Origin: an uncultured SAR86 cluster bacterium | Lineage (GTDB): Bacteria > Pseudomonadota > Gammaproteobacteria > Magnimaribacterales > AG-339-G14 | Assembly: GCA_902522825.1 (NCBI GenBank) | Contig: CABYXE010000002.1 | Location: 1 to 32,529 of the forward strand | Length of the DNA stretch: 32,529 bases | Direction of reading: 5' to 3' | Shown: positions 5,304 through 5,875 of the stretch, piece by piece | Position numbering within the stretch: the stretch's first letter is position 1 | Layout of the letters: every line of letters begins with the position of its first letter | The notes under the pieces: model-generated | What the model was told of the DNA's origin: nothing | Database searches by the model: none | The model's input: the letters and a program-made list of their open reading frames with translations, nothing else | Program-made: the position numbers and the translations under genes

Positions 5304-5321
5304 AGAAAGATCATTTTCCGT

Positions 5322-5327
5322 TATAAT
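5322..5327 (+). promoter_or_regulatory. TATAAT box six bases before the micro-ORF
   Basis: A perfect -10 hexamer lies exactly 6 bases before the ATG at 5334, with no Shine-Dalgarno sequence between. If used, transcription would begin at or near the A of the ATG and give a leaderless mRNA. The -35 region (about 5298-5304) is poor. The same spacing is found before the genes starting at 16169 and 16648. Confidence 0.4.
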
Positions 5328-5333
5328 AATCAT

Positions 5334-5393
5334 ATGTGTGAATGTTGTGATTGCTGCGAGTGCGATTGTTGCTCTAAGCGAGATTTTAAATAA
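5334..5393 (+). CDS. Cysteine-rich 19-residue micro-ORF
   Basis: ATG-to-TAA frame encoding MCECCDCCECDCCSKRDFK: eight cysteines in the first 13 residues, interleaved only with Glu and Asp, then a short basic tail. The run of C, CC and acidic residues looks like a soft-metal-binding peptide. It is too short for usual gene finders. A TATAAT box sits 6 bases upstream, and the MerC-domain gene begins 83 bases downstream on the same strand. It could be a metal-binding peptide, or a leader peptide sensing cysteine supply or metal for the MerC gene. The composition is too biased to be a typical chance frame, but translation is unproven. Confidence 0.5.
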   Translation: MCECCDCCECDCCSKRDFK

Positions 5394-5417
5394 AACTTAA
5401 GCCTCTGCTTGATTGGG

Positions 5418-5446
5418 TTGTAGCGCTTTCAGCTATGATCTATAGT
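5418..5446 (+). promoter_or_regulatory. Candidate promoter of the MerC-domain gene
   Basis: TTGTAG (5418-5423) and TATAGT (5441-5446) are spaced 17 bases apart, about 30 bases before the GTG start. An overlapping alternative is TTGATT (5409-5414) with TATGAT (5434-5439) at 19 bases. Both are moderate matches only. Confidence 0.3.
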
Positions 5447-5476: not shown

Positions 5477-5875
5477 GTGAAAGCTTCACAAGCAATTACC
5501 GATAGACTGGCCATGACATTGTCATTTGCCTGCATATTGCACTGTCTTTTTATGCCGGCTTTTATAATTTCTTCGGTCACATTTGCTTCGTCGCAATTTA
5601 CAGATGAGCTTCTTCATTACTCCATTCTTTTCTTGGCAATTCCAATTAGTTTTTTTGCCTTAATGTCGGGAAAAAGAAATCACAACAACAATCTTGTTTT
5701 TGCTGTTGGGCTTTCAGGACTACTAGTTCTTTTTTCTGCTCTTTTCATGGAAGGTGAGTTCTATGGCTTGCCACTCGAAACTCTTATAACTCTTATCGGT
5801 TCAATTGTTGTCATATCAGCGCATTACAAAAACTATCAAATTTGTCAGCGCATTGATTGTGCCTGTCACGAATAA
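5477..5875 (+). CDS. MerC-domain membrane protein
   Basis: 132 residues and four membrane helices. Helix 1 has ACILHCLFMP (C19 to C23), the Cys-x-x-His-Cys pattern of MerC proteins, which in mer operons carry mercuric ions across the inner membrane. The C-terminus CQRIDCACHE adds three cysteines and a histidine on the presumed cytosolic side, as in MerC. There is no merA, merP or merR nearby, so another metal such as zinc is equally possible. The start is GTG at 5477, fixed by a strong GGAGGAG ribosome site 9 bases upstream. The cysteine-rich micro-ORF just upstream supports a metal-related setting. Confidence 0.85.
   Translation: MKASQAITDRLAMTLSFACILHCLFMPAFIISSVTFASSQFTDELLHYSILFLAIPISFFALMSGKRNHNNNLVFAVGLSGLLVLFSALFMEGEFYGLPLETLITLIGSIVVISAHYKNYQICQRIDCACHE

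Follow-up and report, generated by a model that had tools for sequence, protein, structure and literature searches.

Metallothioneins are very small proteins, densely packed with Cys in CxC motifs between polar spacers, whose thiolate clusters hold metals. Bacterial metallothioneins include SmtA and MymT (PMC7558416), and the Cu-thioneins of Neurospora and Agaricus, with 26 aa and seven Cys, have been described as formerly the shortest metallothioneins reported (PMC4755600). Short Cys-containing ORFs are also found among regulatory elements. Mycobacterial polycysteine leaderless ORFs are described as regulating downstream genes via cysteine availability (Canestrari et al., 2020, cited in PMC9031893), and CruR/DUF2946 is a copper-responsive upstream ORF (uORF) for a predicted exported protein of 145 residues, which has a single CXXC and a C-terminal RAPP arrest motif and heads TonB-receptor operons (PMC9426467).

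The micro-ORF described here, from the SAR86 cluster, shares features with metallothioneins and with the mycobacterial polycysteine uORFs and fully matches neither, which is why its peptide is assigned to neither class. With metallothioneins it has in common a very high content of Cys in CxC, CC and CxxC arrangements (eight Cys in 13–19 residues, invariant in the 34 loci of the tree presented below) and core spacers that, in SAR86, largely or wholly lack aromatic and hydrophobic residues. It differs from them in its length of 13–19 aa, in a denser and other spacing of its eight Cys (CxCCxCCxCxCC) and in an apparently leaderless expression (in SAR86), and metal binding by the SAR86 and phage peptides is putative. 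Like the polycysteine uORFs, it is very short, rich in Cys codons and leaderless (with a start site deduced from the register of its −10 box). Unlike them, it is tied to no particular downstream operon and shows no leaning towards sulfur genes – rather than heading operons for sulfur or cysteine metabolism, it precedes 31 unrelated gene families in 65 loci –, its spacing and polar spacers are conserved, and its phage copies use Shine–Dalgarno (SD) sites. With CruR it shares being a Cys-containing ORF considered for metal sensing, but the 19 aa encoded here contain no RAPP motif and are no exported CXXC protein of ~145 aa.

The micro-ORF and its conservation

The window, that is, the whole stretch of 32,529 nucleotides that was analysed, belongs to an uncultured member of SAR86, one of the common uncultured lineages in surface seawater, whose genome is represented by 1.11 Mb in 30 contigs. 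The features discussed below are as follows.

5316–5321, + strand: place of the promoter's upstream extension, which reads TTAGT in the family consensus (−18 to −14) and is occupied by TTCCGT in this copy (−18 to −13)
5322–5327, + strand: TATAAT −10 box, in a fixed register of −12 to −7 from the ATG (logo of 69 loci)
5334–5393, + strand: micro-ORF, 19 aa, MCECCDCCECDCCSKRDFK, core MCxCCxCCxCxCC
5417–5439, + strand: MerC-proximal element GTTGTAGCGCTTTCAGCTATGAT, read from upstream sequences
5477–5875, + strand: membrane protein of the MerC family (PF03203), starting with GTG, SD GGAGGAG
Cys peptide sequences: MCDCCDCCECSCCAK; MCKCCKCCNCTCC

An eight-Cys micro-ORF at 5334–5393, with TATAAT six bases before its ATG and a MerC gene 83 bases past its stop, had been proposed in an original prediction, and all three elements are indeed there. 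The ORF runs over 19 codons from the ATG at 5334 to a TAA at 5391–5393, with Cys at positions 2, 4, 5, 7, 8, 10, 12 and 13, hence eight within the first 13 residues, and this core is followed by an SKRDFK tail that was missing from the sequence first quoted. The gene that starts with GTG at 5477 matches PF03203 with E = 2.9e-25 and 89.4 bits (gathering score 27.6). Upstream in the window, 297–1604 encodes a protein in which MsrA, a thioredoxin-like part and MsrB (SelR) are fused.

The exact spacing MCxCCxCCxCxCC is present in 49 of the 151 related genomes searched, its reversed control gave no match there, and a simulation (8 Mb, order-2 Markov, composition of the window) gave at most five Cys in the 12 codons after any ATG. 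When TATAnT followed by MCxCC after a gap of 4–8 was searched for, every one of the 44 matches was a full eight-Cys member, and the gap was exactly 6 in 42 of them. Across 84,980 species (one genome each), the strict pattern gave 78 matches, 70 of which are of SAR86 type, that is, SAR86 or unlabelled gammaproteobacterial/Pseudomonadota records, several of the latter being genomes of the same order by position. The other eight – in Dehalococcoidales, Eubacterium, Stenotrophomonas, Gallionellaceae, Cryptobacteroides, Flavobacteriaceae, Granulosicoccus and Weeksellaceae – are poly-Cys frames and were rejected as family members. The shorter pattern MCxCCxCCxC occurred in one of the 398 genomes of a phylum-wide sample, namely the window's own. 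The SAR86 consensus is MC[DEKN]CC[DSK]CC[ENQTK]C[STADN]CC with a short tail behind it, 14–19 aa in total. Its core has D, E, K, S, N, T, Q or A as spacers, and hydrophobic residues are limited to a few tails (e.g. Phe in the window copy). The distribution is patchy, since the micro-ORF was found neither in one family (f2) nor in two genera (g3 and g4), whose genomes mostly keep MerC. One genome (G093) has two different copies, MCDCCKCCECSCCSK and MCDCCNCCKCSCCSK, at loci L106 and L132. Compared with solved structures, a profile of the micro-peptide retrieved nothing at E ≤ 10, its 15 positions being perhaps too few for such a search, and a literature text search with the motif letters, and with SAR86 and metallothionein, returned nothing relevant. 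Judged from its sequence record, the micro-ORF is a real, unannotated gene that is conserved across SAR86.

Selection acts on the cysteines themselves. In a tree built from MerC proteins, using 34 loci with both MerC and the micro-ORF, the eight Cys codons underwent at least 37 synonymous TGT/TGC changes and no residue change, and the four spacer codons underwent 29 residue changes. Since a TGY codon can mutate at a single base in nine ways, just one of them synonymous, this ratio argues for strong purifying selection on the peptide, bearing in mind that Cys loss is invisible in this tree because its 34 loci (like the 69 of the logo) were selected by a Cys-requiring pattern. A search allowing three mismatches, which is able to reveal such loss, gave two altered copies alone, one with C2Y (G054) and one with its start codon changed from ATG to AAT (G143); no copy was frameshifted, and otherwise the micro-ORF was either whole or gone. 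This was the outcome of the test set by the original prediction, which asked for frameshifts or loss of the cysteines in close relatives.

Promoter and translation start

In the 69 non-redundant loci aligned on the ATG, the −10 box reads T64 A66 T61 A67 N T67 at −12 to −7; the consensus includes the TTAGT extension but no SD site. We infer that the micro-ORF mRNA is leaderless and would start at the AUG, because this is where the register of the −10 box puts the start site. Elsewhere in these loci, the promoter motif was followed by an ATG at the matching offset 18 times (18 expected), and a general leaderless promoter of SAR86 was rejected for want of any such excess. An exception within SAR86 is informative: at one locus (L163, 1640–1740), the same peptide is encoded behind a promoter of consensus type (TTGACA and TATAAT), with a 5′ leader and the SD site GAGAGG in between, and this use of a different initiation mode for the same product argues that the peptide is made. 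RNA structure was assessed by folding four regions, of which those from the window (z = 0.23) and L119 showed no excess and a single one stands out (L164, z = −2.45), the region folded for L095 having missed its ORF. Across the regions folded, no consistent structure speaks for an RNA attenuator.

Neighbouring genes and metal context

No gene family neighbours the micro-ORF more often than MerC, found within 4 kb and always on the same strand in 35 of 70 loci (the second commonest family is found in 20 of 70). Near a random position, MerC would be expected at ~0.5% per locus, but a nominal probability for this linkage is meaningless because the loci share ancestry, and the linkage may be inherited synteny. 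MerC is often 1–4 kb off, being directly downstream in 6 of 65 loci and directly upstream in another 6 of 65. In 65 of the 70 loci it is known which gene comes first downstream; these genes belong to 31 families and are on the same strand in 59 of 65 cases, near the background of 653 of 765 for other neighbours (individual gene boundaries are rough because a simple ORF script was used to call these genes). Other recurrent neighbours in the 70 SAR86 loci are HXXEE, an SMR-like small membrane protein, PepSY_TM and a Met/His-rich secreted protein, and small accessory genes seem to have a hotspot in this region. The element at 5417–5439 (GTTGTAGCGCTTTCAGCTATGAT) is inverted-repeat-like, with paired changes in a relative (L003/L164), and is possibly a promoter/operator of MerC. 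An element resembling GTTGTANCNCTNANAGNTATNAT precedes MerC in members of the genus with and without the micro-ORF, and two of these genomes (G001 and G002) keep MerC and its upstream element, the micro-ORF being gone with no remnant found.

P-type ATPases (PF00122) scored over the cut-off in one of 151 SAR86 genomes versus 14 of 14 control genomes, and the usual copper/zinc exporters therefore seem to be missing, in genomes with and without the micro-ORF alike. The presence of HMA domains was not significantly associated with that of the micro-ORF (Fisher p = 0.09), and a copper link via HMA proteins was rejected. The proximity of MerC and the scarcity of P-type pumps form a link to metals that is circumstantial.

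Copies in marine phages

The strict pattern is also present in 24 IMG/VR contigs. One match is a poly-Cys frame, and the remaining ones encode MCxCCKCC[NS]CxCC, in 13 or 14 residues, mostly behind an SD-like motif. A shorter pattern adds MCKCCKCCTCTCPECN, MCNCCDCCDCGCGCKS, MCKCCDCCDCGCDC and others in phage contigs, which brings the short Cys ORFs behind an SD-like motif to ~42 marine phage contigs in all, and a start-codon-free pattern retrieved, among the matches listed, copies in which the same core is extended at its start by MQNK, MSS, MKTK, MAK or MSK. The flanks point to several phage types, including a Kyanoviridae-like one and another with a T5-like terminase small subunit. The annotated relatives of these phages that neighbouring genes led to are Kyanoviridae (including cyanophages), phages of Methylophilales and Pelagibacter, and carriers of a T5-like terminase; no peptide copy was seen in the four stretches of these records that were checked. 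In the phage with the T5-like terminase (L067, 3577–4360), and in this one lineage only, a 14-residue Cys micro-ORF is directly followed by NifU_N/IscU-like (PF01592) and then IscA-like (PF01521) genes. The charge of the spacers flips, from D/E in most SAR86 copies to K in many phage copies. The SAR86 micro-genes are related to, or convergent with, these marine phage micro-genes.

Alternative explanations

That the micro-ORF arose as a chance open reading frame is next to impossible; nothing was found in its favour, and it is contradicted by the pattern counts in genomes and reversed control (49 of 151 versus 0), by the 70 SAR86-type matches among 84,980 species, by the five-Cys maximum in simulated sequence, by the selection on the Cys and by the fixed −10 register. 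A leader dedicated to MerC, sensing metal or Cys, could appeal to the adjacency of the two genes, which the window shares with G006 as its closest relative, as well as to the rank of MerC among the neighbours. However, this idea is scarcely credible as a general explanation, since MerC immediately follows in so few loci, 31 families take the downstream place, the ORF is found downstream of MerC in several species, G001 and G002 have MerC without the ORF, and MerC's own element is kept whether or not the ORF is there. A Cys-responsive leaderless uORF, at which ribosomes would slow on the Cys codons if Cys-tRNA is scarce and thereby alter how the next gene is expressed, is in keeping with the leaderless register, with a short and Cys-dense ORF and with a next same-strand gene that usually starts ~45–200 nt downstream. 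It is nevertheless rather improbable in view of (i) the lack of a sulfur-assimilation theme in the 31 downstream families, (ii) a same-strand frequency close to background, (iii) the conservation of exact spacing and polar spacers, (iv) the folding results, unremarkable in the window and conspicuous at L164 alone, and (v) phage versions with SD sites and other neighbours.

The product might instead be a thiol-redox or Fe-S peptide, carrying a cluster or acting as a disulfide buffer rather than as a Cu/Zn sink, as hinted at by Cys 2, 5, 8 and 4, 7, 10, 13, whose CxxCxxC(xxC) runs resemble those of Fe-S proteins, and by the phage copy that precedes IscU-like and IscA-like genes. We regard this as unlikely, because that neighbourhood was encountered in a single phage lineage and the recurrent neighbours in SAR86 include no recognised Fe-S assembly genes. 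Alternatively, many bacterial micro-proteins bind protein partners as regulators, and the Cys could fold the peptide around zinc for this widespread mode of action. Such a role is very unlikely here, since a polar core without hydrophobic positions (bar an occasional Ala) and with spacers that flip in charge leaves little surface for a specific partner.

A candidate metal-thiolate micro-protein

The explanation that we favour is that SAR86 possesses an independently expressed micro-gene whose peptide probably buffers or detoxifies a thiophilic metal, much like a minimal metallothionein. It draws on what is legible in the DNA itself: the micro-gene is conserved, its Cys are under selection, its promoter keeps a fixed register, its phage copies have ribosome-binding sites, and it is independent of the downstream gene. 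The product would be a cytosolic peptide of 13–19 residues, with the fixed spacing CxCCxCCxCxCC and polar spacers, which would accumulate and wrap a thiophilic metal ion or small cluster in a thiolate cage. The candidate metals are Cu(I), Zn, Cd or Hg, with Fe-S also possible, and their caging would result in buffering or detoxification, perhaps in cooperation with MerC. A thiolate cage fits better than a codon-level sensor because the spacing of the Cys is fixed, the polar spacers are interchangeable and may bear either charge, a hydrophobic core is absent and expression is free-standing. The part of the original prediction that envisaged a metal-chelating peptide overlooked by annotation therefore gains support, from the invariance of the Cys under many synonymous changes and also from the varied initiation architectures, the phage copies and the position of MerC as commonest neighbour, and the part that envisaged a MerC leader does not.

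It is conceivable, although we put it forward tentatively, that these peptides make up an undescribed family of metal-thiolate proteins of ~13–19 residues, shared by SAR86 and several kinds of marine phages, which would serve as the main cytosolic sink for a soft metal in cells nearly devoid of P-type metal pumps and be delivered by phages during infection. The micro-peptide is shorter than the 26 aa of the shortest metallothionein that we found reported. If the proposal is true, a gene of ~14–19 codons would set a lower size limit for natural metal-binding proteins, it would hint at the way in which streamlined cells cope with copper, zinc or mercury when they lack ATPases for metal export, and phages would turn out to carry an unusually short host-like gene.
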